From Vulcanimicrobiota bacterium (lineage in GTDB: Bacteria > Vulcanimicrobiota > Vulcanimicrobiia > Vulcanimicrobiales > Vulcanimicrobiaceae), in assembly GCA_019232905.1 (NCBI GenBank), contig JAFANA010000030.1, positions 1 through 64,000 on the forward strand: 64,000 nucleotides of DNA. The letters are read 5' to 3'. Shown piece after piece: positions 157 through 48,189 of the stretch; the first letter of the stretch is position 1; the number at the start of each line of letters is the position of its first letter. The position numbers were made by a program, and so were the translations under genes. Below the pieces are notes generated by a model. That model was not told the origin of the DNA. It searched no databases and was given only the letters and a program-made list of their open reading frames with translations.

Positions 157-846
157 TCATGCGTCCGGGTGCCCTTTTGCCGCGCGAGCGGCGAACTCCC
201 GGACGAGCGCGTCGATGTTCGTTATAGCGGTACCCACGACGACCGCGTCTGCACCAGCGGCGAACGCCCTTGCGAGGTCGTCCGGACGCGCGACGCCGCC
301 TTCCGCGATGACGAAGGTATCTAATTCTGCAAGCCGGCGCAAGAACGTGAGACTGGGCAAGGGCGTTCCTTTGGTCTGCGCGGTGTATCCGCAAAGTGTG
401 GTCGCCACGATATCCGCCTCCGCGAACTGCGCGCACACGCCGTCGTCTTCAGTTGCGCAATCGGCCATAGCGAGCCGCCCCTCGGCGTGAATCGCGGCAA
501 CGAGATCCTCCACGGTCACGGCGCCGGGACGAGGGCGTCCGGTTGCATCGAAGGCGATGATCTCCGCACCGGTCGCCGCAATCTCGCGCACTTCGGCGAG
601 CGTCGGCGTGATGTAGGGCTCGAAGCCTTCGTACTCTCGCTTGATAATGCCGACGATCGGAATGCGAACGCGAGCGCGGGCTGCAAGGAGATTCGCAACG
701 CCTTGCATGCGCACGGCGACCGCGCCGTTGGCTTCTGCTGCGGCTGCCATTGCGGCCAGCACGTACGGGTCGTCGATCGCCGAGCCGGGCCACGCCTGCA
801 CCGATACGATCAACCCGCCGCGCAATCGTTCGAGAACGCCGTTCAT
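157..846 (-). CDS. nanE: N-acetylmannosamine-6-phosphate 2-epimerase (NanE-like)
   Basis: This 229-residue TIM-barrel protein matches the NanE pattern. It opens with LRGGLIVSVQA, has AVRMQG near residue 45 and IVGIIKREY near 64, and ends with a phosphate-binding AEGG...GADAVVVGTAIT region near 180-210. NanE interconverts N-acetylmannosamine-6-phosphate and N-acetylglucosamine-6-phosphate in the cytosol, linking sialic acid or ManNAc use to glucosamine catabolism. Length is normal for the family. The start codon overlaps the end of the upstream sugar-kinase gene as ATGA, so the two are probably translationally coupled. No NanA or NagA/NagB homologue lies beside it, so the source of substrate is unknown. 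Confidence 0.88.
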   Translation of the reverse strand: MNGVLERLRGGLIVSVQAWPGSAIDDPYVLAAMAAAAEANGAVAVRMQGVANLLAARARVRIPIVGIIKREYEGFEPYITPTLAEVREIAATGAEIIAFDATGRPRPGAVTVEDLVAAIHAEGRLAMADCATEDDGVCAQFAEADIVATTLCGYTAQTKGTPLPSLTFLRRLAELDTFVIAEGGVARPDDLARAFAAGADAVVVGTAITNIDALVREFAARAAKGHPDA

Positions 847-1724
847 GCGCGACGCGCCAATACGAGTGCGCCGTCGACCGGGTCACCCTTTGCCTGCACG
901 ACGTTTGCCGCCGGCAATGCGTCCTGCGTAGCTTCGGTGATGCGATTGCGCAGCCACGGATCTGCGACCAATCCGCCGACGAAGGCAACGTCGATGGGAT
1001 CGGCGCTTTCGCGCGCGGCGCGGGCTGCCAGACGAGCCAGCTCCTGTGCTGCCTGCACCGGAGGGTCGCATAGGCACGGACATCCCTCACGAGCTTTCGC
1101 TGCCGCGATACAAACCGGCGCGAATGATGCGAGGCTCGCCCGCGAAACGTCACCGACGTAAAATGCGCGCACGAGCTCGCGCAACGTGTGTACGTCGAAA
1201 AAACTCAAGAGCGCGCGCGTGCCGTCGCAATCGCCGTGATAGGTCGCAAGCGAGATCGCCGTGCGGGCAATCCAAAAGGCGCTGCCTTCATCGCCGAACA
1301 GGTATCCCCATCCGCCCTCGAAGTGCGAGCTTCCATCGGCGAACACCGCATACGCGGCGGAACCCGTTCCCGCAATTACGACGACGCCCGAATTACCGCC
1401 GAGCGCGCCGGCGTGTGCGATGACGGTATCGTGGACGAGCCGTACGCGATCGCCCGGTAAACGCGGCGATTGTCCGTAGACGCGTCCTTCGTAACCGGAA
1501 ATACCGGCAACAATTGCATCGAAGCGCGTCTCTTCTTTCATATTCGCGTTTCGCAGTGCGTCCGCGAGTGCGCCTTCGAGTGCATCGCGAAGACGCGTCG
1601 ATTGCGCATCGGCGCCGATCTCGTCGGCGGGACCGGCGTACCCGAACGCGATCGCATGCCCGTCGTCACCTGCGATAAGCGCGGTTGTGGAAGTTTGTCC
1701 CGCGTCTATTCCGGCGAAGAGCAC
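843..1724 (-). CDS. BadF/BadG/BcrA-type ATPase, probable N-acetylhexosamine kinase
   Basis: This 293-residue protein has the ASKHA ATPase fold. The first phosphate loop is FAGIDAGQTSTTALI at residues 3-17, and an adenosine-site GTGSAAY lies near 118. That pattern fits bacterial and eukaryotic N-acetylglucosamine kinases of the BadF/BadG group. It would phosphorylate a free amino sugar (GlcNAc or ManNAc) with ATP in the cytosol, giving the 6-phosphate used by the adjacent NanE-like epimerase. Its start lies two bases from the end of the HExxH gene and its end overlaps nanE, so the operon is tight. Substrate is inferred from the neighbour; other BadF-type ATPases activate enzymes rather than phosphorylate sugars. 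Confidence 0.8.
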   Translation of the reverse strand: MLFAGIDAGQTSTTALIAGDDGHAIAFGYAGPADEIGADAQSTRLRDALEGALADALRNANMKEETRFDAIVAGISGYEGRVYGQSPRLPGDRVRLVHDTVIAHAGALGGNSGVVVIAGTGSAAYAVFADGSSHFEGGWGYLFGDEGSAFWIARTAISLATYHGDCDGTRALLSFFDVHTLRELVRAFYVGDVSRASLASFAPVCIAAAKAREGCPCLCDPPVQAAQELARLAARAARESADPIDVAFVGGLVADPWLRNRITEATQDALPAANVVQAKGDPVDGALVLARRA

Positions 1725-1726
1725 GG

Positions 1727-2029
1727 CTAATGGATTTCGAGAAGCCGGCGAGCGAAGTCGTTTGCCGCGATTTCGCGATCTTTGCGCTCGTTCAAGCGCG
1801 GGATTTCACCGATCGCCTCGCGGTGATGGTACAACTCGTGGCCGACCGACAAGACGACGAACTCGCCGAGCTCTGCCGGCGTCATCTGTTCGGCTACGCG
1901 TGAATTGATGCGAATCGTCGGCCCCGACGGGTCATACTCCGAACGCAATTCGTCGATTCCCCAATCGCCGAGGTCCGCGAAGGCGATCTCAATGCCGTAT
2001 TCGCGAGCTAATTTCAAAGCCGGGTTCAC
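1727..2029 (-). CDS. Small HExxH zincin-like protein
   Basis: A 100-residue protein with a clear zincin motif, VGHELYHHRE (HExxH), near residues 63-72. Downstream acidic residues (RKDREIAANDFARRLL) could supply a third metal ligand, as in the ImmA/IrrE metallopeptidase group. It is much shorter than typical ImmA/IrrE proteins and lacks a helix-turn-helix domain. It has no signal peptide, so it should act in the cytosol. Its start overlaps the end of the FAD oxidoreductase gene as ATGA and it lies immediately before the sugar kinase. A peptidase in the middle of an amino-sugar operon is unexpected, and no substrate can be proposed. Confidence 0.7.
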   Translation of the reverse strand: MNPALKLAREYGIEIAFADLGDWGIDELRSEYDPSGPTIRINSRVAEQMTPAELGEFVVLSVGHELYHHREAIGEIPRLNERKDREIAANDFARRLLEIH

Positions 2030-3381
2030 GCGGTTCTCCGTAGGTCGACACCGTCATCGATCAAGATGCGGCGCAGTTGCGCGCCCTCCACCGCGCTGAC
2101 GTTCACGTTTCGCTCATTCGCGAGCGCAGCAGCGGTTCCGGCCGCTTGACCAAGTGTCATGACCGTCGGCGTCAAGCGCGTCGAGGCCAGCGCTTCATGC
2201 GTCGTCGAAATGCATCGTCCCGCAACCAACAGCTGCTCGCGATTGACCGGAACGAGGCAACGGTACGGGATCTCGTAACTTGCGCCGGGCGCGAGACGAT
2301 GCGTCGTCGTTCCGCTTCCGCTGGGATTGTGAATGTCGATCGGATACGCGCTGCGCGCAACGGCGTCGTCAAACTGCCGCCCTTGCAAAATATCGTCCGC
2401 GCCGAGCGTGTAGCGTCCGACGATGCGCCGCGATTCGCGAATCCCGACTTGCGCGCCGGTCGCCGCGATACGCGCGTTTTCGAATCCGGGCACGCGTTCG
2501 CGGAAGAAGCGCAAGAGTTGCATCACTTGCAGGCGCGCTTCGATTTCGGCACGCGTCAAATCGTCGGGATCGAGCGGGTCGATGTTCGTCACACGCGTCA
2601 TGTTGACGGTGACTTCGTCGGGATAGGGCGAGATGAAAAAGGAAACGAGCTCGCGCGGTATGTCGACCATTCCGTCGCGTTTGGCTTCTTCCCACAGCTC
2701 GTAGAGACCGGCGACCGCGGTTAGCGCGGGCGCGGTGCGCTCGTGTGCCTTCAGTGACGTGCGCATTTGATCGGCGTGCATGCGCACGTACGTCGCGGTC
2801 TTCGTCAGATCGACGTGACTCAAACGGAACATCAGACTCGCGGGCTGCACGCGGCCGCGCTCGTCACCTTGTTGGGTTGGGACTCCGGCCGCATATGCGA
2901 CATAGGCGTCAGCGGTCGCATCGATCACCACGCGCGCGCGATAACTGCGTCCACCGCCGACCGTTGCAACGTTTGCGCCGGTGACGCGGTCGTCCTCGAC
3001 GAGCGCGGTGAGAAACCACGTGTGCAGCAACAGGTCGACCTTTGCTTCACGCATCATCTCGAAAAGCAGCGCCTTGTGGATTTCGGGATCGAACGGCGTG
3101 ATCGTCGGGACGTAATCGGACGAATCGTGAATGTGGCCGGGCGAACCGCCCCGGCGCACGAGCCGCTCGACGATCTCCTGCGCGATGCCCCCGACGATGC
3201 GCTCCTCGCCCGAATGGAACGTCATCCACGGTCCGACCATCGACGCCGTTGCCGTGCCGCCGAGAAACCCGTACCGTTCGACGAGCAACACGCGCGCGCC
3301 ATGACGTGCAGCGGCGAGCGCCGCCGCGCACCCTGCATTTCCGCCGCCGAGAACCAATACGTCATACGAACTCGTCGTCAT
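2026..3381 (-). CDS. FAD-dependent oxidoreductase (FAD_oxidored family)
   Basis: About 451 residues. The N-terminus YDVLVLGGGNAGCAAALAAA is a Rossmann dinucleotide-binding motif, followed by the acidic end of strand 2 (VLLVERYGFLGG). GGTATASMVG and a C-terminal VAGRCISTTHEAL...GQAAGTAA segment fit the FAD_oxidored (PF12831) group of secreted or cytosolic flavoproteins often found beside sugar-catabolism genes. A longer start at 3411 is possible; 3381 is preferred because the flavin motif follows it at once. It is the first gene of the minus-strand amino-sugar operon, so it may oxidise the incoming sugar or a derivative, but the reaction of this family is mostly unknown. Confidence 0.82.
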   Translation of the reverse strand: MTTSSYDVLVLGGGNAGCAAALAAARHGARVLLVERYGFLGGTATASMVGPWMTFHSGEERIVGGIAQEIVERLVRRGGSPGHIHDSSDYVPTITPFDPEIHKALLFEMMREAKVDLLLHTWFLTALVEDDRVTGANVATVGGGRSYRARVVIDATADAYVAYAAGVPTQQGDERGRVQPASLMFRLSHVDLTKTATYVRMHADQMRTSLKAHERTAPALTAVAGLYELWEEAKRDGMVDIPRELVSFFISPYPDEVTVNMTRVTNIDPLDPDDLTRAEIEARLQVMQLLRFFRERVPGFENARIAATGAQVGIRESRRIVGRYTLGADDILQGRQFDDAVARSAYPIDIHNPSGSGTTTHRLAPGASYEIPYRCLVPVNREQLLVAGRCISTTHEALASTRLTPTVMTLGQAAGTAAALANERNVNVSAVEGAQLRRILIDDGVDLRRTA

Positions 3382-3453
3382 GATGCGATAACGTGCGCCC
3401 TTCGGCACCATGCTACGGAGGCCATTTTCGGCTCGAAGCTAACGGATGAGCCG

Positions 3454-7265: not shown

Positions 7266-7886
7266 ATGGGAGCAGTGGAACGCCGCGCAAGGCAGCGCGA
7301 GGAGGTCCGGTCGCAGATTGTCGACGCGGCGCGAGACATCGTGGTCAACGAGGGCTATCATGCGCTGACGATGCGACGGATCGCAGAGGCAGTCGAATAC
7401 TCGCCCGCCGCCATCTATCAGTACTTTCAGAATCGAGACGCAATCGCGGTCGCAGTTACCAGCGAAGGCTTCGTGCAGTTGCTGCACGCGTTTGCGCCCT
7501 CGCGGTCACTCGACAATCCCCGCGCGCGGTTGGAAGCGATTGCGCGCGCCTACGTCGACTTCGGCTTAACCAACCCGCAGACATACCGCTTGATGTTCAT
7601 GGAGGATCCTGAAATCACGCGCGCACTGCTCGCCCAACCGGATCGGAATGATCCGGGAACGCAAGCCTACCTCGCGATTGTCGAACCGATTGCGCTACTT
7701 GCACAACAAGGTGCAATCGACGCACGAGATGACGCATCAGTGCGCGCAATCGCCGACACGCTGTGGGTGACCGTGCACGGCATCGTCAGCTTGAAACTCA
7801 CGTGCCCGACATTTCCGGAGACGCCCGTGGACGTGCTGATCGCGAGCGCGATGCGAACCTTCTTCGAGGGAATTCTGAAGCGCTAG
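7266..7886 (+). CDS. TetR/AcrR-family transcriptional regulator
   Basis: A 206-residue protein. The N-terminal helix-turn-helix is textbook TetR: IVDAARDIVVNEGYHALTMR, then IAEAVEYSPAAIYQYFQNRD (residues about 20-60). The C-terminal half (TYRLMFMEDPEITRALL...VTVHGIVSL) matches the TetR_C WHG-type ligand domain. It probably represses its own gene and the divergent SDR gene through the three palindromes just upstream. The ATG at 7266 is preferred to a TTG at 7242. The end overlaps the convergent membrane-protein gene by four bases. Confidence 0.9.
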   Translation: MGAVERRARQREEVRSQIVDAARDIVVNEGYHALTMRRIAEAVEYSPAAIYQYFQNRDAIAVAVTSEGFVQLLHAFAPSRSLDNPRARLEAIARAYVDFGLTNPQTYRLMFMEDPEITRALLAQPDRNDPGTQAYLAIVEPIALLAQQGAIDARDDASVRAIADTLWVTVHGIVSLKLTCPTFPETPVDVLIASAMRTFFEGILKR

Positions 7887-8296
7887 ACGCGCGAGCCGAC
7901 GATCATGAGCGTCAACGCGCACACGAGCAGCGCGGCCGACGCGACGGCGAATGCGCGGCCGCGCTCTTGCAACCGGCCGGTGATGATGCCGGTGAAGACG
8001 GCGGCGATTCCGCAAAGCGCACCGATTCCGATCAGCCCTCCACCGGTCGAACGCGCGAATCCGCTGTTGAATCCGCCGGAAACGATCCAATAGAGCCAGA
8101 GGCCGGATAGAATCGTCGTCGCACCCGCAACGCCGAGCGCGCGCGGAACCCGTTGGAAAAGCTGCGGCGCGAAATGCTGCGCAACGTCGGGGCCGGCCGC
8201 GGCGAGCGCCGGCGTCACAACGCCGACCAGCAGCAGCGTCGACCCGAGCCAGAACGCTGCGGCGAGGACGTGAATTGCCAGCAACGCAATCATCAT
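7883..8296 (-). CDS. Four-TM membrane protein, CopD-like
   Basis: A 137-residue protein with four hydrophobic segments. The first, ALLAIHVLAAAFWLGSTLLLVG, carries a membrane histidine and a W-x-G-S pattern like those in CopD/DUF2269-type proteins. GLWLYWIVSGGF and GRLQERGRAFAVA follow. A second ATG one codon later (8293) is equally possible. It sits just downstream of a TetR gene on the same strand, with its own apparent promoter and a palindrome between them, so it is probably the target of that regulator. Metal or heme binding is a guess from the first segment; the function is unknown. Confidence 0.65.
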   Translation of the reverse strand: MMIALLAIHVLAAAFWLGSTLLLVGVVTPALAAAGPDVAQHFAPQLFQRVPRALGVAGATTILSGLWLYWIVSGGFNSGFARSTGGGLIGIGALCGIAAVFTGIITGRLQERGRAFAVASAALLVCALTLMIVGSRV

Positions 8297-8307
8297 GAAA
8301 TTGACTG

Positions 8308-8333
8308 TACGACTCGTATAATTAATTTGTCAA
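8308..8333 (-). promoter_or_regulatory. Promoter with overlapping palindromic operator
   Basis: On the minus strand a consensus -35 TTGACA (8333-8328) overlaps the stop codon of the TetR gene, and a poor -10 (TACAGT) lies about 18 bases on. Across this spacer sits a perfect 11-base palindrome, TACGACTCGTA (8308-8318). Its position between the TetR gene and the membrane-protein gene suggests the TetR operator. Confidence 0.5.
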
Positions 8334-8944
8334 GGGATGTTGAACCCCAGGCAAGCCGAGGCTAGTTCTTTGATGCGCGAGGCGATCTGCCGTTCGCTGT
8401 ATCCGGCTTGCGCGAGCGCTTGGCACATTGCGAAGTTGGTGAGGATATAGAGCGCGTCAACATTGCGTTGATAGACGCGCCTGCCTCGGATTTTCATTTG
8501 TTTATGCACGCGATCCATCATCGTGCGAATGGCTTGCAGCCTCCATGCATCACGCTCCGCCGCATGCGAGTCGGGATCGAGCTGCGAGAGCGCCGACAAT
8601 CTTCCGAGCACGTCGGGCTCGCTCAACCAGAAATGCACGAACGCTTCGATGAGTTTTCCGGTCGCCGCCGCCGGATCGCTCGTCATGAATGCGCCCGCGA
8701 CATTATCGCGGATCTGCCCGCGAGCGGCAAGGTCGTCGGCGAGCGCCTCGTATACCGCCGTTTTCGACTCGAACTGATTGTAGACGGTCATGCGCGCCAC
8801 GCCGGCTTCACGCGCGATGCCGTCCATCGTAAAATTGCGAAAGCCTTCGTCCGACATGAGCAAATCACGCGCGGCCGCGATGATGCGAGCGCGCGTTTCG
8901 TCGACGCTTTGCTTGCGTCTGCCGAGCCTATAATTACGCGGCAC
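8330..8944 (-). CDS. TetR/AcrR-family transcriptional regulator
   Basis: A 204-residue protein with an N-terminal TetR helix-turn-helix: RARIIAAARDLLMSDEGFRNFTMD, then IAREAGVARMTVYNQFESK (residues about 18-60). The GTG start at 8944 lies inside the last codons of the HyuA-like gene (11-base overlap), so it is coupled to the large upstream operon. The C-terminal ligand domain is not assignable to a substrate. It probably controls the membrane-protein gene just downstream through the palindrome at 8308-8318, and possibly the whole operon. Confidence 0.85.
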   Translation of the reverse strand: MPRNYRLGRRKQSVDETRARIIAAARDLLMSDEGFRNFTMDGIAREAGVARMTVYNQFESKTAVYEALADDLAARGQIRDNVAGAFMTSDPAAATGKLIEAFVHFWLSEPDVLGRLSALSQLDPDSHAAERDAWRLQAIRTMMDRVHKQMKIRGRRVYQRNVDALYILTNFAMCQALAQAGYSERQIASRIKELASACLGFNIP

Positions 8945-11033
8945 GCGCTACGGTCACAATCATGATTGGGTCATCGTGCGCGCGACCCGACGTTTCTTCC
9001 TTCGCAAGCGACACGGCTTGGCCGACGTTCGCGAGTCCGCTGAAATCGGCGATCTTTCCGCCATGAATCAAAAAGAGCTCCGGTAAGGCGCGGCCCACGT
9101 CGCCGAATGATGTTGCGGCTTCGACCGCCTCGCGTAATGCATTCTCGAGCGCTCCTGCGGTCGTACGATGAAGCGTCGCGTCGCGCAGTGCGAGACGCAC
9201 GACCGCGCGCTCGTCGACGATGCGAAGATCGTGACCCGACACGAATGCATCGAGCAGCGGCGTACATTCAACCGAGTGGACCGTGCCTGCGTCGACACCC
9301 ATCGCGTGAGCCGCAGCGGCACGCCGCTGCTCGAGATCGTACGTGCCGTGTCCCGCCGCTTCAACCATTGCGGTCGCGCCGGATGCCGTCGCGCGAACGC
9401 GATTACGTTGCGTATCGATCTCGACGCTTACCTCAATCCGTTCCGGAGATGCGCCGGAGGTGATGACGCGATCGGCGGCTTCACGCCGAATGCGTACGAT
9501 ATCATCCGGCGTGGGATCGACGATCGTGCGTTCGACGACGTCGCGTACGAGCGCGAGTGCGACTCCAATCGGCGAAATGACATCGGCATCGCGCGCAATG
9601 CGATGACGGAAGCCGCCGGCTTGCGCGACGAAGGGCACGATCGCGGCCGCTCCGCCGCCGCCGCCGATCAGCACGAGGCGATCGCGCGGTAACTCATAGT
9701 CGGCGACCAACTCATCGATCAGCGGCAACACTTTGGCGGCCGCGAGTTCGAGCATGCGGCGCGCAATGACTTCCGCGGTGCTGTCGCACGCACGGGCCAG
9801 TAGCTCGAATGCCGCACGAGCGGCGAGCGCGTTTCCGCGCGCGAATGCGTCGTCAGGCACGTATCCGAGCACGTTGCTCGCGCACGTCGGCGTCACCGTC
9901 GCGAACGACCCGTCGGCTAAAACGAAGCGCACGTAATCCGGCGGATCGTGCGGTGTCGGCGCAAATCGCTCGATACGCGCGCCTTCGAACGCACCGTCAG
10001 GGAGAAATGTCGCGTACGAACAGCCGGCGATGTGCGCAGAACGCGGGCCGACGTCGACGAGGGCATGCGCGCTCATGCGCGGCATGCTGCCGCCTGCGAC
10101 GCCGAGCGTTCGCGAGTCGATCGTTCGCAACATCGTACGATGGCCGCCGACGCGCGCCGGACGCATTTGCGGCTGACCGGCGCGAATCGCCGACGCGTCC
10201 ACGCTCGTGCCGCCGACTTCCAGAAAAATCCCGTCGGTGACGTTTTCGTAGAGTAACGCGCCGGCAACGCCGGCGGCCGGCCCGGAAAGCATCGTGAGGA
10301 TCGGGCGCCGTTCGATTTCGCGAACGTCCATCACGCCGCCGTCGGAACGCATTATCATCAGCGGCGCGGAAATCGTCGCGCGCTCCACCGCTTGCGCCGT
10401 CATCGTCGCCGTGCGAACCATCTTCGGGAGGATCGCCGCGTTCAGTGCCGCCGTGCGCGTGCGCGCGCGCAGACCGTACATGGATGACACGTCATGGCCA
10501 CTCGTCGCGAAGAGTCCGCGTTCACGCGCGACGTTCATGACGCGTGCCTCCCGATCGGGAGCATCGACGCCGAACGCCTCGCTCGCAGCAATAACCTCGA
10601 CGCCTTCTCGCGCGAGGCTGTCGACAGCCTCGTCGATCGCACGGCCGTTTCTACCAGCAACGAACGCGAAACGCGGTGCGAATTCTACGCCCGGCGCGAG
10701 CGTCACCGGGCGGAAATGCATCTGCGAGCGCGCAAACCATCCGCCGCGTTGCGTCATACCGACCACGCCGACGCTGGCTACGTCGCCTTCGAGCAGTGCG
10801 TTCGTCGCCTGTGTCGTCGAGTGCGCGATGAAGGCGACATCCTCGGGTGCGACGCCGCTCTCCGCGAGCAACCGTTCGATGCCGGCGATAATACCTGCCG
10901 CGACACCGCTCGGCGCATCATGCGTCGTCGGAACTTTTATCTTCGCGATGAGTTCGCGCGTCGCGGCATCGATGGCAACCACGTCCGTGAACGTGCCGCC
11001 TACATCGACGCCGAGCCGGAGCTTGCGTGCCAA
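8934..11033 (-). CDS. Hydantoinase/oxoprolinase A-type protein (HyuA-like)
   Basis: A 699-residue ATP-dependent amidohydrolase-like protein. It begins LRLGVDVGGTFTDVV, the hydantoinase/5-oxoprolinase N-domain signature, with AHSTTQATNALLEG near residue 70. The core hydantoinase_A domain includes FLEVGGTSVDAS and VDVGPRSAHIAG. Family members hydrolyse hydantoins, 5-oxoproline or N-methylhydantoin using ATP, usually with a HyuB partner. No HyuB gene is adjacent here, and some core motifs are degenerate, so the substrate is open. It starts with TTG directly after the stop of the beta-lactamase-like gene with no gap, showing tight operon structure. Confidence 0.82.
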   Translation of the reverse strand: MARKLRLGVDVGGTFTDVVAIDAATRELIAKIKVPTTHDAPSGVAAGIIAGIERLLAESGVAPEDVAFIAHSTTQATNALLEGDVASVGVVGMTQRGGWFARSQMHFRPVTLAPGVEFAPRFAFVAGRNGRAIDEAVDSLAREGVEVIAASEAFGVDAPDREARVMNVARERGLFATSGHDVSSMYGLRARTRTAALNAAILPKMVRTATMTAQAVERATISAPLMIMRSDGGVMDVREIERRPILTMLSGPAAGVAGALLYENVTDGIFLEVGGTSVDASAIRAGQPQMRPARVGGHRTMLRTIDSRTLGVAGGSMPRMSAHALVDVGPRSAHIAGCSYATFLPDGAFEGARIERFAPTPHDPPDYVRFVLADGSFATVTPTCASNVLGYVPDDAFARGNALAARAAFELLARACDSTAEVIARRMLELAAAKVLPLIDELVADYELPRDRLVLIGGGGGAAAIVPFVAQAGGFRHRIARDADVISPIGVALALVRDVVERTIVDPTPDDIVRIRREAADRVITSGASPERIEVSVEIDTQRNRVRATASGATAMVEAAGHGTYDLEQRRAAAAHAMGVDAGTVHSVECTPLLDAFVSGHDLRIVDERAVVRLALRDATLHRTTAGALENALREAVEAATSFGDVGRALPELFLIHGGKIADFSGLANVGQAVSLAKEETSGRAHDDPIMIVTVARAA

Positions 11034-11945
11034 CTAAATCGGAAACAGACGCGTAGCGTCGTACGCGGCTCGCCCAACGGCGGCGATGATCGCATCGCGC
11101 GCCGGCTCGTCGCCGCGAGCATCGGAAAGCATCGCAACGATGATGACCGACCTGCCGAACACGTTCACGATACCGACGTCGTTCGTCGCAGCCGTTACGC
11201 CGTCAGAGGTTCCGGATGTCCCGGTTTTATGCGCGACGAGCGTTCCGGCAGGGAACCCTGCGCGCAACCGTCCGGGAAACGTCGTGCTCTTTGCGAGCAT
11301 CTGAAAGACCGCCGTTTGCGACGGACGCAAAAGCAGTTTTCCGTTCTGCAGGTCCGACAGCAACGTCCCGAGCGCTGCCGGCTTCGCGAACCCATTGTCG
11401 TTCGGGTCAAGCAATATGCCGTCATATCCGAGTGCGCGCAAGTCCGCGTTTGCGCGATCGGATCCGCCGAGAAGCCGCAACAACGCCTTCGCCGCCGTGT
11501 TGTCGCTGTTCTCGATCATGAGCGTCGTGAGTTCGGACACGGCGTAGTTCGTGCGCGCGGGATAATTCGCGGCGACGTCGCTCACGGTTTGGACGATGTC
11601 CTGCGATTCGATCGTCACTTCATTCGACGCTTGAAGCGTGCCGGCGTCAATCGCACGATACACGAGAATTGCAATCGGCAGTTTTTGCACGCTTTGCATC
11701 GGCATCGCTTCGTCGGCGTTTACCGAGGCCGTCGACCCGGTAGCGAGATCGATGACGACGGCGCCGAGCGTTCCGCCCAGATTCTTTGCTCGCGCCTGCG
11801 CATCGTCAATGCCGTTCGAGAGCATCGCGCGCTCGGACACCGGCGGCGGCGTTGCGGTCTGAATCGTGACCGGCGTGGGAACGGGAACCGGCGCCTGTGG
11901 CGCCGGCGTCGGAAAAAACTGCGCGAGCAAAAATGCTGCTATCAC
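11034..11945 (-). CDS. Class A beta-lactamase-like serine hydrolase lacking Glu166
   Basis: A 303-residue protein with a short hydrophobic N-terminus and a proline-rich linker, so it is probably exported. It keeps three class A motifs: SVQK (S85, K88; the S-x-x-K nucleophile motif), S147-D148-N149 and K240-T-G. Between the SDN motif and KPAALGTLL the omega loop is about nine residues shorter than in TEM-type enzymes, and the deacylating glutamate (Glu166) and Asn170 are missing. It may therefore be acylated but not turn over, or act as a D,D-peptidase or esterase. The start overlaps the M20 peptidase stop as ATGA. Resistance should not be assumed. Confidence 0.82.
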   Translation of the reverse strand: MIAAFLLAQFFPTPAPQAPVPVPTPVTIQTATPPPVSERAMLSNGIDDAQARAKNLGGTLGAVVIDLATGSTASVNADEAMPMQSVQKLPIAILVYRAIDAGTLQASNEVTIESQDIVQTVSDVAANYPARTNYAVSELTTLMIENSDNTAAKALLRLLGGSDRANADLRALGYDGILLDPNDNGFAKPAALGTLLSDLQNGKLLLRPSQTAVFQMLAKSTTFPGRLRAGFPAGTLVAHKTGTSGTSDGVTAATNDVGIVNVFGRSVIIVAMLSDARGDEPARDAIIAAVGRAAYDATRLFPI

Positions 11946-13327
11946 ACCGACACGTTTCGCGCGATCTCGTCGTAGAGTAACGTCATCGTAAGAATGCCGC
12001 CGAAGAACTGCGAGAGCGTAAACTTCTCATTCGGTGCGTGAATCTGATCATCCGGCAATCCGACGCCGATCAGCACTTGCGGCAGTTTGAGGATGCGAGC
12101 GAAACTCGCAACGGGTCCGATCGAACCGCCCGTCCCGATGAACACGGGGCGCTTCCCGAATCCCGCTTCCATCGCGCGCGCAGCCGCTGCAACAACCGGA
12201 TGGTCGCGCGAGATCACGACCGCGGGCACTTCGCCCGCGTCGTGCACGTCGACGCGCACGCCGCTCGGCGCAACTTGCACGATGTACGCCGCAACCGCTT
12301 CACGAACGCGACGCGGGTCTTGGTCGCCGACGAGACGCGCGGAGATCTTCGCTTTCGCCCAGGATGGAATGATCGTCTTGCTTCCCGGGCCTTGGTATCC
12401 ACCCCAAATTCCGTTGCACTCGAGTGTCGGCCGGAACCACATCCGCTCCAGCGGCAAACGCCCGCTCTCGCCGGCGAGCGACGTTACACCGAGTTGAGCG
12501 GCTTCTTTTGCTTCGTCGAACGGCAACGTACGCAGCTCACCGAGCGCGGGCGGTTCGAGGTCGGAAACGCCGTCGTAAAACCCCGGAACCATCACGCGTC
12601 CGTCCGCGTTTTTCAGCTCTCCGATGATGTGCGCGAGCGCTTCGATCGGGTTGCGAATGATACCGCCGAAATATCCGGAGTGCAGATCGGCCGACGGCCC
12701 GTGCACGGTGATCTCCCAATGCACGAGACCGCGCACGCTCGTCGTCAGGGACGGAACGTCTTCCGAATAGACGGCGGTATCGCTGATCACCGCGACGTCC
12801 GCGTTAAAGAGGTCGGCGTAGCGTTCGAGTGCAGCTTCGAAGTTCGGCGAACCAATTTCTTCCTCGCCCTCGACGACGACTTTGATATTGACGGGAAGCC
12901 GTCCGCGCGTTCGCATATGCGCTTCGATTGCGGCGAGGTGCATCAATACTTGCCCCTTGTCGTCAACGGCGCCGCGCCCGAAAATCTTTCCGTCGCGCAC
13001 CGTGCCCTCAAACGGCGGCGTCGTCCACAACTCCACCGGGTCGGCCGGCTGCACGTCGTAATGCCCGTAGATCAGGACGGTCGGCATGCCGGGCGCCCCC
13101 ATCCATTGCCCGTAAGCGATGGGATTGCCGCCGGTTTCGAGCGCCTTCGCGTCGAGCCCGATTTCACGCATTCGTTCGACCAGGCGCGTGCAGCAGCGCG
13201 CGACGTTCTCACGATGATTCGGATCCGCGGACACCGACGGAATCGCGATCCAGCGCTTGAGTTCATCGAGATAGTCGTCGCGATGCGTTTCGCAATACTG
13301 TGCCAAGTCGGAATCGATCGTATTCAT
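11942..13327 (-). CDS. M20-family metallopeptidase (dipeptidase)
   Basis: A 461-residue cytosolic metallopeptidase. Metal ligands are visible as IYGHYDVQP near residue 87, GRGAVDDKGQ near 117 and VEGEEEIGSPN near 151. A lid domain and a C-terminal GTGGSIGP...LGVGLPDDQIHAPNEK (pattern) carry the second-domain ligands. It resembles the M20 dipeptidases (beta-Ala-His dipeptidase-like group) and would cleave short peptides or N-acyl amino acids. It ends by overlapping the beta-lactamase-like gene and starts 18 bases after the carrier gene. Within this operon it would act after the carrier has imported the peptide. The exact dipeptide is unknown. Confidence 0.88.
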   Translation of the reverse strand: MNTIDSDLAQYCETHRDDYLDELKRWIAIPSVSADPNHRENVARCCTRLVERMREIGLDAKALETGGNPIAYGQWMGAPGMPTVLIYGHYDVQPADPVELWTTPPFEGTVRDGKIFGRGAVDDKGQVLMHLAAIEAHMRTRGRLPVNIKVVVEGEEEIGSPNFEAALERYADLFNADVAVISDTAVYSEDVPSLTTSVRGLVHWEITVHGPSADLHSGYFGGIIRNPIEALAHIIGELKNADGRVMVPGFYDGVSDLEPPALGELRTLPFDEAKEAAQLGVTSLAGESGRLPLERMWFRPTLECNGIWGGYQGPGSKTIIPSWAKAKISARLVGDQDPRRVREAVAAYIVQVAPSGVRVDVHDAGEVPAVVISRDHPVVAAAARAMEAGFGKRPVFIGTGGSIGPVASFARILKLPQVLIGVGLPDDQIHAPNEKFTLSQFFGGILTMTLLYDEIARNVSV

Positions 13328-13345
13328 GCGGTAGTTACCCGAGCC

Positions 13346-15343
13346 TCAAGTCGTAGGAACGTACGGCGCTCCGAGCTGCACCTCGACGGTCTCACCATTG
13401 CGATCCACCTCGAATGCGTGCGGCTTGCCGTCATAGGCGCGCAGTTGCGTTTGATACGTGCCATATTCCCACCAAAACCTCCCGTCGACTTTATTGACGA
13501 TGTCGTTGGTGCGCAAACCGGCGATATAGGCCGGGCCGCCGGCGCGTACATAGACACGCATGTTCCCGTCGAGCGTCTTGAAGAGCGTGTAGTAGTACGT
13601 CGGAGGATCCCCCGCCACGGCTGCGAGTCCGTTCTCGAACAGCGCGGTCGCGCGCGCCGACCCGGACGCCCACGTGCGCAATCGCTGAGCCCCTTCCGTC
13701 GCAAGCCGGCCGGACAGCGCCGGCGTGACCGTTCCGGCCGTGGCATGATCGTGCCACTCGTTGACGATCCAGCCGCCGCAATCTTCCAACCGCACGCCGA
13801 CGTCGAGGTCGGTACCTTCGATCACCTTGAAGGTCGACGTTGAGACGAACAGATACGCAGCATACGGTTTGTGCGCGCAATTCTTTGCATCGGGATCGTC
13901 GTGATCGGTAAATGCTTGCATATCGGCATGGCGCAAATCATCGATCACGGCCGCTGCGGCCGTCCGCGAAAGCGGCGCGCCGTCGTTGTCGACCGCGATC
14001 TTTCCCCGCGCGCTCGTTTGGGCAAAGAATCCGGGCGCGGTTTGCGCGTCGGCGGGCGCAACGTCGAGCGCAAATGCCTTGGTTCCGAAAAGCGGAACGC
14101 TCGCCGAGACGGCGAGAATCGCCGCGACGGTCGCGACCGCTACCTGAAACGGCAACGTGCGTTTCGTGATCGTGTCGATCGGCACGCCCGTAAAATTTGC
14201 GACCCAGACGTTTGCGGTGTTGGTCGGATCGCAGACATTTTGGACCTGCACGACCGTCATGATCGCCGCAACGATCACGACCGCCGGTAACGCATGCGAC
14301 GCGAGCAGCACCGTGAAGATCGCGATGCCGACGCCGAACGGATTGAGCGGGCCGCGGTACAGTGTGAGCGGACTCAGCAATCCGAAGATTGCAACGAACG
14401 CGATGGGATTTGCAATCCATCCGCCTGCCACGAGCGGCGTAAGCGCGGAGGCCAGCTGCGGCGCCTTGGTTGCATCGAGCAGCATGCCGATCCCGATAAA
14501 GAGCAGCACCGCCGGCGCCACATCCTCCACGCCTCGAATCGCAGCGGCAACGAGCGTCGGAATCGCTCGACGCGGCCGCGTCACCAGTACGCCGAAGATT
14601 GCGGAGAGAACGAACGCGAGCATTGCGTCGATTCGTAACGCAAAATAGAGCACGATGGGAAGCACCGGCGTCAGCAATGCGATCGCCGGGACGGAGGATT
14701 CGCGTTCGTTCTCGGCCTTGACGGCCCACGTCGCGTATCCACGTTCGCGCCTAAACGAAAAGGCGGCATATACGATCAGCGCGATCGCGTCGACGACGGC
14801 GAGCAACGCGGCGAAATGCGCGAGTTGTTGCGGAACCACGCCAAAGAGCTGGGTGTAGAACTTCCAGTTCGTCAGGTTGAAAATGAAGCCCAGCGCAAAC
14901 GACATGAGAAACATCGTTGCGGCCGTCGTACGCGGAACGCCGGTCGTCATCATGATGGGCAAGACGATCGAACCGACCATGATGATCGCGCCAAGCCCGG
15001 ACAGGGACGTGAAGAGCAACGCAACGACCGCGCAGAGCACCAGCGCCAGCACGAACGGCTGCTCTCCACCGTACTCGGCCGCAAGATTGACGAGCGCGCG
15101 CGCGATGCCGGTATCGAGCGTGACGCGCGCGAGCAAGGCGCCGAAGATCACCGTCACGTAGACGGGCGCGAGCGACGATGCGCCGCTGACAACGAGCGAC
15201 GCGATGTGCGGGAGCGGAACGCCGACGACCAGCATCATCGTCACAGCCATCGCCGGAACCGCAACGATCGCCGGCATCCACCGCCGGAACATCATGACGG
15301 CGAACACGACGAAGACGGCGAGGACGAGAAACGCCGGGATCAT
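13346..15343 (-). CDS. GntP/CitMHS-like carrier fused to a PDZ-like C-terminal domain
   Basis: A 665-residue protein in two parts. Residues 1 to about 415 form 11-12 membrane segments, with LLFTSLSGLGAIIMVGSIVLPIMM and PLTLYRGPLNPFGVGIAI resembling ion-transporter superfamily organic-acid or gluconate symporters. The last 230 residues are soluble. They include a segment with two cysteines (DPDAKNCAHKPY and VRLEDCGGW) and end in AYIAGLRTNDIVNKVDG, the carboxylate-loop and groove pattern of a PDZ domain. This fusion is unusual. Its end is separated from the M20 gene by 18 bases and its start overlaps the GH20 gene as ATGA, so it probably imports the GH20 products. Confidence 0.75.
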   Translation of the reverse strand: MIPAFLVLAVFVVFAVMMFRRWMPAIVAVPAMAVTMMLVVGVPLPHIASLVVSGASSLAPVYVTVIFGALLARVTLDTGIARALVNLAAEYGGEQPFVLALVLCAVVALLFTSLSGLGAIIMVGSIVLPIMMTTGVPRTTAATMFLMSFALGFIFNLTNWKFYTQLFGVVPQQLAHFAALLAVVDAIALIVYAAFSFRRERGYATWAVKAENERESSVPAIALLTPVLPIVLYFALRIDAMLAFVLSAIFGVLVTRPRRAIPTLVAAAIRGVEDVAPAVLLFIGIGMLLDATKAPQLASALTPLVAGGWIANPIAFVAIFGLLSPLTLYRGPLNPFGVGIAIFTVLLASHALPAVVIVAAIMTVVQVQNVCDPTNTANVWVANFTGVPIDTITKRTLPFQVAVATVAAILAVSASVPLFGTKAFALDVAPADAQTAPGFFAQTSARGKIAVDNDGAPLSRTAAAAVIDDLRHADMQAFTDHDDPDAKNCAHKPYAAYLFVSTSTFKVIEGTDLDVGVRLEDCGGWIVNEWHDHATAGTVTPALSGRLATEGAQRLRTWASGSARATALFENGLAAVAGDPPTYYYTLFKTLDGNMRVYVRAGGPAYIAGLRTNDIVNKVDGRFWWEYGTYQTQLRAYDGKPHAFEVDRNGETVEVQLGAPYVPTT

Positions 15344-17235
15344 TGGATGAGGGTCTCGAGGTCCGGCAACGGCTTCTTTTTCTCATAGAGTTCGTAGGTC
15401 ACGCGATCGATTGCATCCGCGCGCTCGATCGCGGTTTGCGCGTCGAGGTGATAGCGTTCGAGGTTGCTCGCAAGATGGCTTTCGCGGTCCTCGTACCGCC
15501 ACGCTTGCGCATAGAGCGGTTCGAGCGCTTCGTCCGTGTCACGCTGCTCCCACAACCAGTACTTGCACCAATACAGATCGCGTTCTCCATCGGCGGGATG
15601 CGTTTTCGCGTGATCGTAGTAGTAGCGGACTTCTTGCGCGATTTGGTATCGCCGGCCGAGCGCGTCATAGCGGCGAGCCGCGAGCAGCATCACATCCGCG
15701 GCATTGCGATGCAGCGGCGGACGCGCGAAATACAAGTGCGTTTCGACCTCTTCTGCGGCCAGTCGCAATGCCGGAATATCCACGTTCGCCATGAGCGACG
15801 CATAATACGGATTGAACGGATCGGCCCAGAACCGCTTGTTGCTCGCACCCGGCATCCGCGCATCCATTCCGCCGAGCAGTTCGATGTCACGTGCGTATCC
15901 CGCGTCGTCGGAGCCGAAGAAAGCCGACGGGAAGTCCCGCGAGAACGGCTCCGCTGCACGGTCTCCGCCCCAGGCGATCGCAGCGGAATAGAGCACCGGA
16001 TACCACGTCGATTCGAAGAGCGTCTCGCCGTCGTCATGCCATACCGTTTGGAACAATCCAAGGACGTGCGCGGTGATGCCTTCGGTGATGAAGCGCCGCT
16101 CGTTCGGCAATGCCGCGTTCAAATCGGGAAAGATTTCGCTCCAATTGTTCGCTCCCGGCGCAACCATCTGGTCGAACCCCCCGTCCGCAATCGTCGAGAT
16201 GTACCGCATATACGAAGGCTCCGCCCCGTAATGCCAGTTGACGATCACCGCGTTCTTCGGAATGTGCTTCATGATCGACGGGTCGCTCTCGATCCCATCG
16301 TCCCACAGCATGACCCTCGCCGGTGCGACGAGTTGCGCCGTCTGCGTGATGTGCTCGGCATAGACGGCGGAACGGCCGCCGTTTGCAGCAACGTACGCCG
16401 CGGTCTGCCCCTCGCCGAGCGTCGCCGTTTCGTCAGACCCGATATGGAAGAACGGTACGTCGCCCAGCGCTTCGCGTTCTTGTCCGATGAGGCGCGAGAG
16501 ATAGGCGCTGCTTTCCGGCACGTTTGGTGAGAGCAGAAATCCGTGCGGAAACTCGGCCATCTTCGCGTACTGCTCGACGCGCAGCGTATTATGCATGTGC
16601 GCGAACGTCTGCTGTTCCGGGATGAACGTGACATGGTAGCGTGCCGCATACTGTTTTAATTCGCGCAGTTGCTCGGGCGTGATGCCGTCAAGCGGCGCGG
16701 GGAGCGGATCGGCGGGACTCAGGAACACGTGCTCCATATACGGCGAGTAGCCGTTCATTTTGAACGCAGCGATCGTCCGAATACGCTCCTTGAAGTAGCG
16801 CATCGTCGGCAATGGTCCGCGCGAGACATCATCGGAGAGCACGCGCCAGCGCAGTTTCGGCGCATCGGAAATCTCGACACACGGCAATTGCCACCGCCCG
16901 TCAACGCGCACCGGCAACTGCGCGAGCGTCATCACTCCGTAAAATGCGCCGTCACCATCGGAACTCGCGATCGTCACGCCCGAGGAATCGACTCGTACAC
17001 GATACCCTTGCGGCGCGATCGTTCCGTCGTGCGCGAAGGTCACTCCGGCACTTGCGGTGCCGTGCACGCTCCTGAGGCCAATCGCGGTCCAGCGCTCATT
17101 CAGCTCGTCGAGCGCACCCGAATCGATCGTCCGCGAAACGGTTCGAGGAACGGAAACTGAACGGCACGCCGTGCTTGTAACGGCCGGGGGTAAAGGAATG
17201 ACATGCAACGCGACGATCGCTAAAACGGCGAACAT
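15340..17235 (-). CDS. GH20-family beta-N-acetylhexosaminidase-like protein
   Basis: A 631-residue protein with an N-terminal hydrophobic signal (FAVLAIVALHVIPLPP) and a GH20b-type N-domain. A TIM barrel carries the catalytic pair in HIGSDET at residues 264-270 (D268, E269); the family consensus is HIGGDE. DDGIESDPS and NWHYGAEPS lie at the positions of substrate-binding loops. It should remove terminal GlcNAc or GalNAc from glycans, chitin fragments or muropeptides outside the cytosol through substrate-assisted catalysis. It is the first gene of the seven-gene minus-strand run. It lacks obvious anchors beyond the signal, and its C-terminal half is longer than in minimal GH20 enzymes. Confidence 0.82.
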   Translation of the reverse strand: MFAVLAIVALHVIPLPPAVTSTACRSVSVPRTVSRTIDSGALDELNERWTAIGLRSVHGTASAGVTFAHDGTIAPQGYRVRVDSSGVTIASSDGDGAFYGVMTLAQLPVRVDGRWQLPCVEISDAPKLRWRVLSDDVSRGPLPTMRYFKERIRTIAAFKMNGYSPYMEHVFLSPADPLPAPLDGITPEQLRELKQYAARYHVTFIPEQQTFAHMHNTLRVEQYAKMAEFPHGFLLSPNVPESSAYLSRLIGQEREALGDVPFFHIGSDETATLGEGQTAAYVAANGGRSAVYAEHITQTAQLVAPARVMLWDDGIESDPSIMKHIPKNAVIVNWHYGAEPSYMRYISTIADGGFDQMVAPGANNWSEIFPDLNAALPNERRFITEGITAHVLGLFQTVWHDDGETLFESTWYPVLYSAAIAWGGDRAAEPFSRDFPSAFFGSDDAGYARDIELLGGMDARMPGASNKRFWADPFNPYYASLMANVDIPALRLAAEEVETHLYFARPPLHRNAADVMLLAARRYDALGRRYQIAQEVRYYYDHAKTHPADGERDLYWCKYWLWEQRDTDEALEPLYAQAWRYEDRESHLASNLERYHLDAQTAIERADAIDRVTYELYEKKKPLPDLETLIQ

Positions 17236-17274: not shown

Positions 17275-17676
17275 TTAGCCAAGTGCGCCTGCGCGCAGCA
17301 ATGCCGCGTCTCGCGCATCAAACGCCGCCGTGACACGCGCGACATACGCGTCAAGTTGCGTGGCGGTCACGGTAGAAGCAGCGTCTGCGAGGTCGAGAAG
17401 CGCTTCATCGGCGTCGAGCAGGCCACTCCCGTCGACCGACTCGCGCGACCACTCGAGCGGCGCAAGCGCACGCTGATTGGCGAAAGCGGAGCGTACGACG
17501 AGGGATTGCAACTGGTCGTCGGTGCCCGGGCGTTCCTGGTCGAGGCGATCGCGCAACGCGACGAGCCGCTCACCGACATAAGCGCGCAGTTCCTCGTCGG
17601 ACGTAATCAGATCGGGTTCGGAACCGTAGCCCGGAAAATCGTTAATTTTTGCGCGGATTCGATCGAGGACGCCCAT
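17275..17676 (-). CDS. Hypothetical protein
   Basis: A 133-residue protein that I do not recognise. It starts MGVLDRIRAKINDFPGYGSEPD and is mostly helical and acidic, without cysteine pairs, membrane segments or signal peptide. The conserved-looking piece FPGYGSEPDLITSDEELRAYVGERL resembles an armadillo-like or DUF-type cytosolic helical bundle. It is divergent from the cyclase-like gene and upstream of the GH20 operon on the same strand. A GTG 30 bases earlier is an alternative start; 17676 is preferred because it is an ATG and avoids a low-complexity lead. Confidence 0.6.
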   Translation of the reverse strand: MGVLDRIRAKINDFPGYGSEPDLITSDEELRAYVGERLVALRDRLDQERPGTDDQLQSLVVRSAFANQRALAPLEWSRESVDGSGLLDADEALLDLADAASTVTATQLDAYVARVTAAFDARDAALLRAGALG

Positions 17677-17732
17677 TTCCCAATGCGATACGACGGGTGA
17701 GGGCACGGCGCCTCGGGAAGACCTCCGCAGGA

Positions 17733-25610: not shown

Positions 25611-25704
25611 TGGCGGGAGCGTGTAGGAATCGAACCTACCAGCCGTCGTGAAACGGCCTCAGCGATTTTGAAGACCGTGCGAGCCACCAGACTCGTACGC
25701 TCCC
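25611..25704 (-). tRNA. selC: tRNA-Sec (UCA anticodon)
   Basis: On the minus strand the 5' end is at 25704. The acceptor stem has eight pairs (GGGAGCGT with ACGCTCCC), as in bacterial tRNA-Sec. The anticodon loop CTTCAAA carries TCA, reading UGA. A long variable arm (GCCGT/ACGGC) and a T arm (GTAGG/CCTAC) follow, and CCA is encoded (25613-25611). The length of about 91 bases plus CCA fits tRNA-Sec and no other class. It lies seven bases downstream of the DUF4126 gene on the same strand and may be co-transcribed with it. It serves the selA and selB genes about 20 kb away. Confidence 0.96.
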
Positions 25705-43953: not shown

Positions 43954-46851
<2,898 letters not shown>

Positions 46852-46852
<1 letters not shown>

Positions 46853-48189
46853 TACGAAAGAAGATCGATAAAAGCCGAGATAATTTCGCGATCTTGATCG
46901 GGGAAGACGCTGCGCATGTCGAGGATTACATTGTCATCCTCGATTCGCGCAACGATCGGCACGCGCCACGCTCGCAGGCGTTCGGCGAGTTCCGCCGCGT
47001 ACGGCGTAGCGACAGACACGGCAATCGACGCGATTCGCGCCTGCGGCAAGGAGCCGCCGCCGACGAACCCGTCGCACTGCACAACCTTCGCATTCGCAAG
47101 CGTAGACGCAATTCGCTCCGCGCGTTCGCGCAGCGTTTCGAGCGATGAGCCGAGCATCTGTAACAACGGTATTGAGTCGAGCGTTTCCGCGTCCCGATAT
47201 AAGCGCAACGTCTCGGCGAGCAATGCAAGGGTCACTTTATCTACGCGCAATGCGCGAACCAACGGATTGCTGCGCAGCCGCGCGATTGCCCATCGCTCTC
47301 CGACGACGATTCCGGCCTGTGGGCCCCCGAGCAATTTATCGCCCGAAAACGCGACGAGCGACAATCCGTCTGCAACAGCCTCCTGCACGGTTCGCTCGCG
47401 CGGCAGTCCGTATCGAGACACGTCAACGAGCGCGCCCGTCCCGAGATCCTCGACGGCCGGAACGCCGGCACGTTTTCCGAGCGAGGCAAGCTCCGCTCCG
47501 CCGACGTCGGCGATGAATCCCTCAATGGCAAAATTCGAACGGTGCGAACGAAACAACAATGCCGTGCGCGGCGTGAGTGCGCGTTCGTAGTCGGCAACGT
47601 ACACCTTGTTCGTCGCGCCGGCTTCGACGAGCTTCGCACCGCTGCGGGCGAGCACGTCAGGAAGGCGAAAACCGCCGCCCACTTCGATCAACTGATTGCG
47701 CGCGATCACGACTTCCGCTCCGCGCGCGAACGTATCGAGAATCAGCAGAATGGCGGCGGCGCAGTTATTGACGACGATTGCATCTTGCGCCCCGGTCAGT
47801 TCGCACAGGATCGCCGTTGCGCGATCGTAGCGCGAACCGCGCTCGCCGGCCGTGAGATCGAACTCCAGATTGGAATACCCGTGACTCACGCTCCACGCGA
47901 ACGTAAACGCCGATTCGGCGATCGGTGCGCGGCCAAGGTTCGTGTGCAATAGGGTTCCGGTGGCGTTGATGACGCCGCGCAGTTCAGCCGACGCTTGCCG
48001 CTCGACGCGCTCAACGACGCGTTCGACGATCATCTCCAGTGGCGCCGCGTCGCGATCCGCGCGCACGCGGTCGAGTTCTGCGCCGATCGCGTCACGCAAA
48101 GCAGCGCGCCCCACGAGCAACTCGTAGGGCGCGACCGCCGGATGTTCTAGGATCGTATGCACCGCGGGCACGCCGCGGAACACGTTCAC
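46852..48189 (-). CDS. selA: L-seryl-tRNA(Sec) selenium transferase SelA
   Basis: A 445-residue PLP enzyme. SAELRGVINATGTLLHTNLGRAP near residue 67 is the SelA signature, and the PLP lysine is K285 in FSGDKLLGGPQAG. It converts Ser-tRNA(Sec) to Sec-tRNA(Sec) using selenophosphate in the cytosol. The start is three bases after the trxA stop and the end overlaps selB, so trxA-selA-selB form one operon. Confidence 0.97.

Follow-up and report, generated by a model that had tools for sequence, protein, structure and literature searches.

We examined a cluster of minus-strand genes in a 64,000-nucleotide stretch of DNA (the window) from contig JAFANA010000030.1 of Vulcanimicrobiota bacterium assembly GCA_019232905.1, and found that its conserved core is the order GH20 glycosidase, carrier with PDZ domain, HyuA-like ATPase, and not the seven-gene unit of a preliminary description. 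This gene order is conserved, and the carrier and HyuA are co-inherited. On balance, judging from gene families and neighbors, we read the cluster as a salvage system for amino sugars (beta-linked N-acetylhexosamines), most likely from peptidoglycan-derived material. The window is part of contig C71 in a host draft genome of 3.29 Mb that is 83% complete; the named relatives are Candidatus Eremiobacterota metagenome-assembled genomes (MAGs), and the host order is apparently Baltobacterales, going by record names and PMC9758169. The core genes and their downstream partners, which include a flavin adenine dinucleotide (FAD) oxidoreductase, are:

15340..17235, minus strand: GH20 beta-N-acetylhexosaminidase-like protein, 631 residues, hydrophobic N-terminus (Pfam PF02838, GH20b, and PF00728, GH20)
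13346..15343, minus strand: carrier-PDZ fusion, 665 residues, with a TRAP-M-like membrane domain (about 1-420), a putatively extracytoplasmic domain and a PDZ domain
8934..11033, minus strand: HyuA-like ATPase of orphan type with the motif EVGGTS (Glu272); Hydant_A_N and Hydantoinase_A, 96 and 198 bits
2026..3411, minus strand: FAD-dependent oxidoreductase (PF12831)
1727..2029, minus strand: protein of about 100 residues between the FAD oxidoreductase and kinase genes; no Pfam match, relatives in the equivalent position
843..1724, minus strand: BcrAD/BadFG sugar kinase (PF01869, 66 bits)
157..846, minus strand: NanE, N-acetylmannosamine-6-phosphate epimerase (PF04131, 191 bits)

Conserved gene order

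Synteny was counted in 80 fetched loci of the host order, mapped by codon scoring and then by tblastn. The carrier gene is directly 3′ of GH20 in 64 of 71 loci, and HyuA follows the carrier on the same strand within 6.5 kb in 68 of 74. Downstream of HyuA come the FAD oxidoreductase (within 7 kb, 53/54 loci), the BadF kinase (44/45) and NanE (36/36). A sister family presents an uninterrupted run of GH20, carrier, PDZ, HyuA, FAD oxidoreductase, 100-residue protein, kinase and NanE, in which carrier and PDZ are encoded separately (loci L215 and L115). HyuA and the carrier are each present in 99 of the 103 genomes of the order.

The preliminary description had listed seven genes running from 17235 to 7883 on the minus strand (GH20, carrier-PDZ, M20 peptidase, beta-lactamase-like protein, HyuA, TetR regulator and membrane protein), which in turn overlap by 4 bases, are 18 bases apart, overlap by 4, abut, overlap by 11 and are 33 bases apart; a check of open reading frames bore out their existence, coordinates and tight spacing. 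When the same neighbors were sought in other genomes, as it had proposed, the core order proved to be kept across phyla and in the majority of over 60 loci. Its conserved neighbor set therefore stands order-wide for the core, but its boundaries do not, the TetR and membrane protein genes being genus-specific and the M20 and beta-lactamase-like genes optional, and it overlooked the conserved downstream partners at 157-3411. The variability of these four genes between genomes would fit a chance grouping of unrelated genes, yet such a grouping is refuted for the core by its conservation, and is scarcely credible overall.

Variant arrangements were also seen. The module is split in genome G049, where one locus (L123) has GH20, PDZ, M20, FAD oxidoreductase, kinase and NanE, and another contig (L117) has HyuA and carrier in reversed order. 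Genera g26 and g37 (L101, L102, L105, L108 and relatives) have genes for a GntR regulator, an ATP-binding cassette (ABC) ATPase and an ABC membrane protein between carrier-PDZ and M20.

The carrier-PDZ protein and the orphan HyuA

The AlphaFold model of the carrier (predicted local distance difference test score, pLDDT, 88; predicted template modeling score, pTM, 0.64) was compared with known structures by Foldseek; the best match is TRAP SiaQM (E 2.8e-7), and DASS and ArsB proteins match too. As modeled, the carrier domain has the fold of the ion-transporter superfamily (TRAP M-subunit). No DctM, TRAP or other usable transporter profile in Pfam or NCBIfam matches the carrier, with a weak GntP match in 2 of 10 members, and no TRAP Q or P subunit was recognized among its conserved neighbors, the genome as a whole not having been searched for them. 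The C-terminal part gives a weak PelC-like match and a weak Pfam PDZ match. Because L115, L123 and L215 encode the PDZ part as a protein of its own, with a signal-like N-terminus, and because Cys489 and Cys522 are invariant in carrier-PDZ, the PDZ-bearing part is placed, presumptively, outside the cytoplasm. The analysis defines a conserved carrier-ATPase pair whose carrier has no Pfam transporter name.

HyuA matches 6yra and N-methylhydantoinase in the Protein Data Bank (PDB), and its model (pLDDT 88) resembles subunits of N-methylhydantoinase, acetone carboxylase, acetophenone carboxylase and caprolactamase. This overall fold is what speaks for the mechanism of the preliminary description, in which 5-oxoproline or another cyclic amide is formed from muropeptides and reopened by HyuA. 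Caprolactamase and bacterial 5-oxoprolinase, however, are two-subunit enzymes (PMC6061476), and HyuB (PF02538) was not found in 35 of the 103 genomes of the order, identified by subtraction from the match list; these 35 include the host, at its 83% completeness, and 13 HyuA-bearing relatives that are at least 95% complete. At the four HyuB loci examined (L222-L225), HyuB adjoins its own canonical HyuA with a DMGGT motif; these four have Asp where all 43 of 43 carrier-linked HyuAs have Glu in the GGTS motif. Ring opening by the window HyuA is accordingly very improbable. A literature search combining HyuA or oxoprolinase with transporter and operon found nothing relevant.

The carrier-HyuA pair outside the order

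The pair also occurs in other Eremiobacterota classes, in a phylum labeled Acidobacteria and in the one to which an Obscuribacterales MAG belongs, HyuA of this type being present in 8 of 396 sampled genomes of the Acidobacteria-labeled phylum and 13 of 386 of the Obscuribacterales-related one. The distances among carriers and those among HyuA proteins are correlated (r 0.88 overall), significantly so within each of four groups by permutation. The window group also resembles the Acidobacteria-labeled group (51% and 49% identity) more closely than it does other Eremiobacterota classes (42% and 39%). Both results suggest that carrier and HyuA were transferred as a unit. In the Acidobacteria-labeled group the pair occurs with the kinase and NanE, usually with the FAD oxidoreductase, and variously with a GH3 hexosaminidase-like protein, DUF4127, GHL10 and a SusC-like receptor.

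Carrier and HyuA could instead be an independent two-gene module, acting on a lactam, cyclic amide, carboxylate or peptide, that has joined amino-sugar genes in some lineages. Both the Obscuribacterales-related phylum and other Eremiobacterota classes have the pair alone, its two members are co-inherited, and the carrier fold, as modeled, is of an anion/carboxylate type (TRAP-M, DASS, ArsB); against this, linkage to the kinase and NanE, usually with the FAD oxidoreductase, is tight in two phyla. We consider such a module possible but unlikely.

Proposed role in amino-sugar salvage

Amino-sugar salvage is favored by the genes for sugar kinase, NanE and FAD oxidoreductase that accompany the core, and by links through DUF4127 and GH3 to a MurQ-AnmK-NagZ operon. 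The latter is on host contig C6 (L290:8035-15179) and reads NagZ-type GH3, PF00144 hydrolase, AnmK, BadF kinase, MurQ, DUF4127, an order kept, with DUF4127 as the last gene, in four relatives (L292-L295); the host MurQ scores 311.9 bits, above the cut-off. The MurQ route is thus represented in the host by MurQ, AnmK and NagZ-type GH3, on a contig other than that of the window operon, which has none of them. DUF4127 and GH3 are partners shared by the C6 operon and the Acidobacteria-labeled carrier-HyuA clusters, and connect the window cluster to peptidoglycan recycling through guilt by association. For DUF4127, which no paper found in our literature search mentions, this gives a first functional lead.

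The window GH20 has the domains of its family and a catalytic pair, Asp268-Glu269, that is invariant in a 15-sequence alignment, marking it as a predicted beta-N-acetylhexosaminidase; its PDB relatives are hexosaminidases and lacto-N-biosidase. NanE together with a sugar kinase, here BadF-type, is a feature shared with sialic acid catabolism (NanA-NanK-NanE) and is found at 157-1724; NanA lyase was not recognized among the cluster neighbors, the genome not having been searched for it. The N-acetylmuramic acid (MurNAc) kinase of Tannerella forsythia is likewise BadF-type (PMC5790795).

In the proposed pathway GH20 would act in the envelope, freeing a terminal N-acetylhexosamine or trimming a glycan, as expected of its family, and the TRAP-M-like carrier, whose PDZ domain is putatively extracytoplasmic, may import the product. 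Once inside the cytoplasm, the compound would first be acted on in an ATP-dependent way by the HyuA-like ATPase, without HyuB, and the BadF kinase and NanE would convert the sugar to N-acetylglucosamine (GlcNAc)-6-phosphate. The M20 peptidase, where present, might cleave attached dipeptides. Of the salvage of amino-sugar/peptide compounds envisaged in the preliminary description, the amino-sugar role is the part that these gene links favor, and the cyclic-amide chemistry the part that falls away.

A different source of sugar was also considered: the cluster might consume chitin oligosaccharides or environmental GlcNAc glycans rather than peptidoglycan, GH20 yielding GlcNAc that is then imported, phosphorylated and used. 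The hexosaminidases and lacto-N-biosidases among the structural relatives of GH20, the kinase and NanE linked to the cluster, and a NagA-like enzyme encoded by the host (215 bits, just below the cut-off) are all consistent with this, but no chitinase was recognized close to the cluster, the links to DUF4127, GH3 and GHL10 point to peptidoglycan, as does the M20 peptidase, and it is not obvious what HyuA would do in a plain GlcNAc route. We judge this source rather unlikely.

Several points weigh against salvage of peptidoglycan amino sugars. GH20 is the usual enzyme for chitin oligosaccharides as well, and NanE implies an N-acetylmannosamine step that is superfluous in a simple GlcNAc or MurNAc route. 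The canonical recycling genes have their own separate operon, so the window cluster is unnecessary for the canonical route; over the order, absences of HyuA and MurQ, compared by eye, have one genome in common (G007) and do not clearly track each other. The near-complete relative G057 has GH20, carrier and M20 without HyuA. Beside the pair in the Obscuribacterales-related phylum and other Eremiobacterota classes no sugar gene was recognized, so the pair's substrate may differ there.

A bolder reading, possible but unlikely, is that the HyuA-fold ATPase, lacking HyuB, either activates the cargo of the TRAP-M-like carrier, for example by phosphorylation, or energizes it, the two forming a two-component system of several phyla that handles peptidoglycan-type amino sugars in Eremiobacterota and the Acidobacteria-labeled group; if so, the system would be previously undescribed. 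The cluster also offers a lead on Eremiobacterota nutrition. Vulcanimicrobium alpinum WC8-2, a cultured member of the host order, grew on yeast extract, whereas no single carbon source listed in its description supported growth; amino sugars were absent from that list (PMC9758169).

Optional, genus-specific and neighboring genes

The remaining features around the core are:

17275..17706, minus strand: small protein, family not assigned, possible first gene of the unit; no Pfam match
11942..13327, minus strand: M20 dipeptidase, predicted cytoplasmic, optional; M20 and M20_dimer, PRK08201 527 bits against a cut-off of 441
11034..11945, minus strand: class A beta-lactamase-like protein, signal-like N-terminus, optional; Beta-lactamase2, with SVQK, SDN and KTG motifs
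8330..8944, minus strand: TetR-family regulator (Pfam TetR_N)
8304..8333, minus strand: promoter-like TTGACA-18-TACAGT and inverted repeat TACGA-G-TCGTA (TACGAGTCGTA), between the TetR and membrane protein genes
7883..8296, minus strand: small membrane protein; no Pfam match

The gene at 17275-17706 is 5′ of GH20 in 26 of the 34 loci that carry it. A sodium:solute symporter gene (family f8) adjoins GH20 in many relatives, and a symporter of the same type is found 3′ of NanE in an Acidobacteria-labeled genome (L266:12-374; 69% identical over 121 residues).

M20, in which no signal peptide was seen, is encoded directly 3′ of PDZ in 25 of 74 loci and is present in 39 loci overall. The beta-lactamase-like gene is 3′ of M20 in 9 of these 39. 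Copies in this position, in the window and in L062, L063, L064, L065, L083, L093, L120, L128 and L130, show decay even within the genus: the relatives, a same-genus copy included, mostly lack the catalytic serine and other motifs, while L130 appears intact. Alignment with 6v4w places a deletion at the Glu166 omega-loop region of the window protein. A working beta-lactamase as a required part of the system is not supported, and the protein probably has no working role in the core. An S-adenosylmethionine (SAM) methyltransferase family (f12) occupies the place of this gene in other genomes; it was considered a candidate beta-lactamase homolog and was dropped after its sequence was read.

TetR is 3′ of HyuA in only 1 of 66 loci, in a same-genus genome, the one genome where the small membrane protein is also present with it; their inclusion as parts of the system is withdrawn. 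The promoter is kept in the same-genus locus L062 as TTGACT-18-TATAGT. Given the promoter- and operator-like site 5′ of it, the membrane protein gene probably forms its own TetR-controlled unit. Elsewhere in the window is selenocysteine machinery: tRNA-Sec (25611-25704), a SelB-like gene (44990-46852) and SelA (46852-48189).

Comparison with known systems

The window beta-lactamase-like protein shares SxxK, SDN and KTG with class A beta-lactamases but lacks their Glu166 omega loop, and most of its relatives lack the catalytic serine. TRAP SiaQM is the best structural match of the window carrier, which differs in lacking a transporter profile match and in its fused, putatively extracytoplasmic PDZ domain. 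The MurNAc uptake and catabolism system of Tannerella forsythia (MurT-MurK-MurQ) likewise serves a cell-wall amino sugar with a membrane carrier and a kinase of the BcrAD/BadFG family (PMC5790795); its three-gene operon is without HyuA, PDZ domain, FAD oxidoreductase or NanE, and the host MurQ is in another operon. NagZ-AnmK-MurQ recycling is present as a host operon, and DUF4127 and GH3 tie it to carrier-HyuA clusters in another phylum; the window cluster, by contrast, employs components foreign to the canonical route, namely GH20, HyuA, FAD oxidoreductase, NanE and a carrier without a family name. With the HyuA-HyuB hydantoinases, oxoprolinases and caprolactamases the window HyuA shares the Hydant_A_N and Hydantoinase_A domains and the overall fold, but it has no HyuB, has Glu for Asp in the GGTS motif and regularly stands beside a carrier; the orphan HyuA clade is thus set apart from the hydantoinases, the name that annotation would give it.
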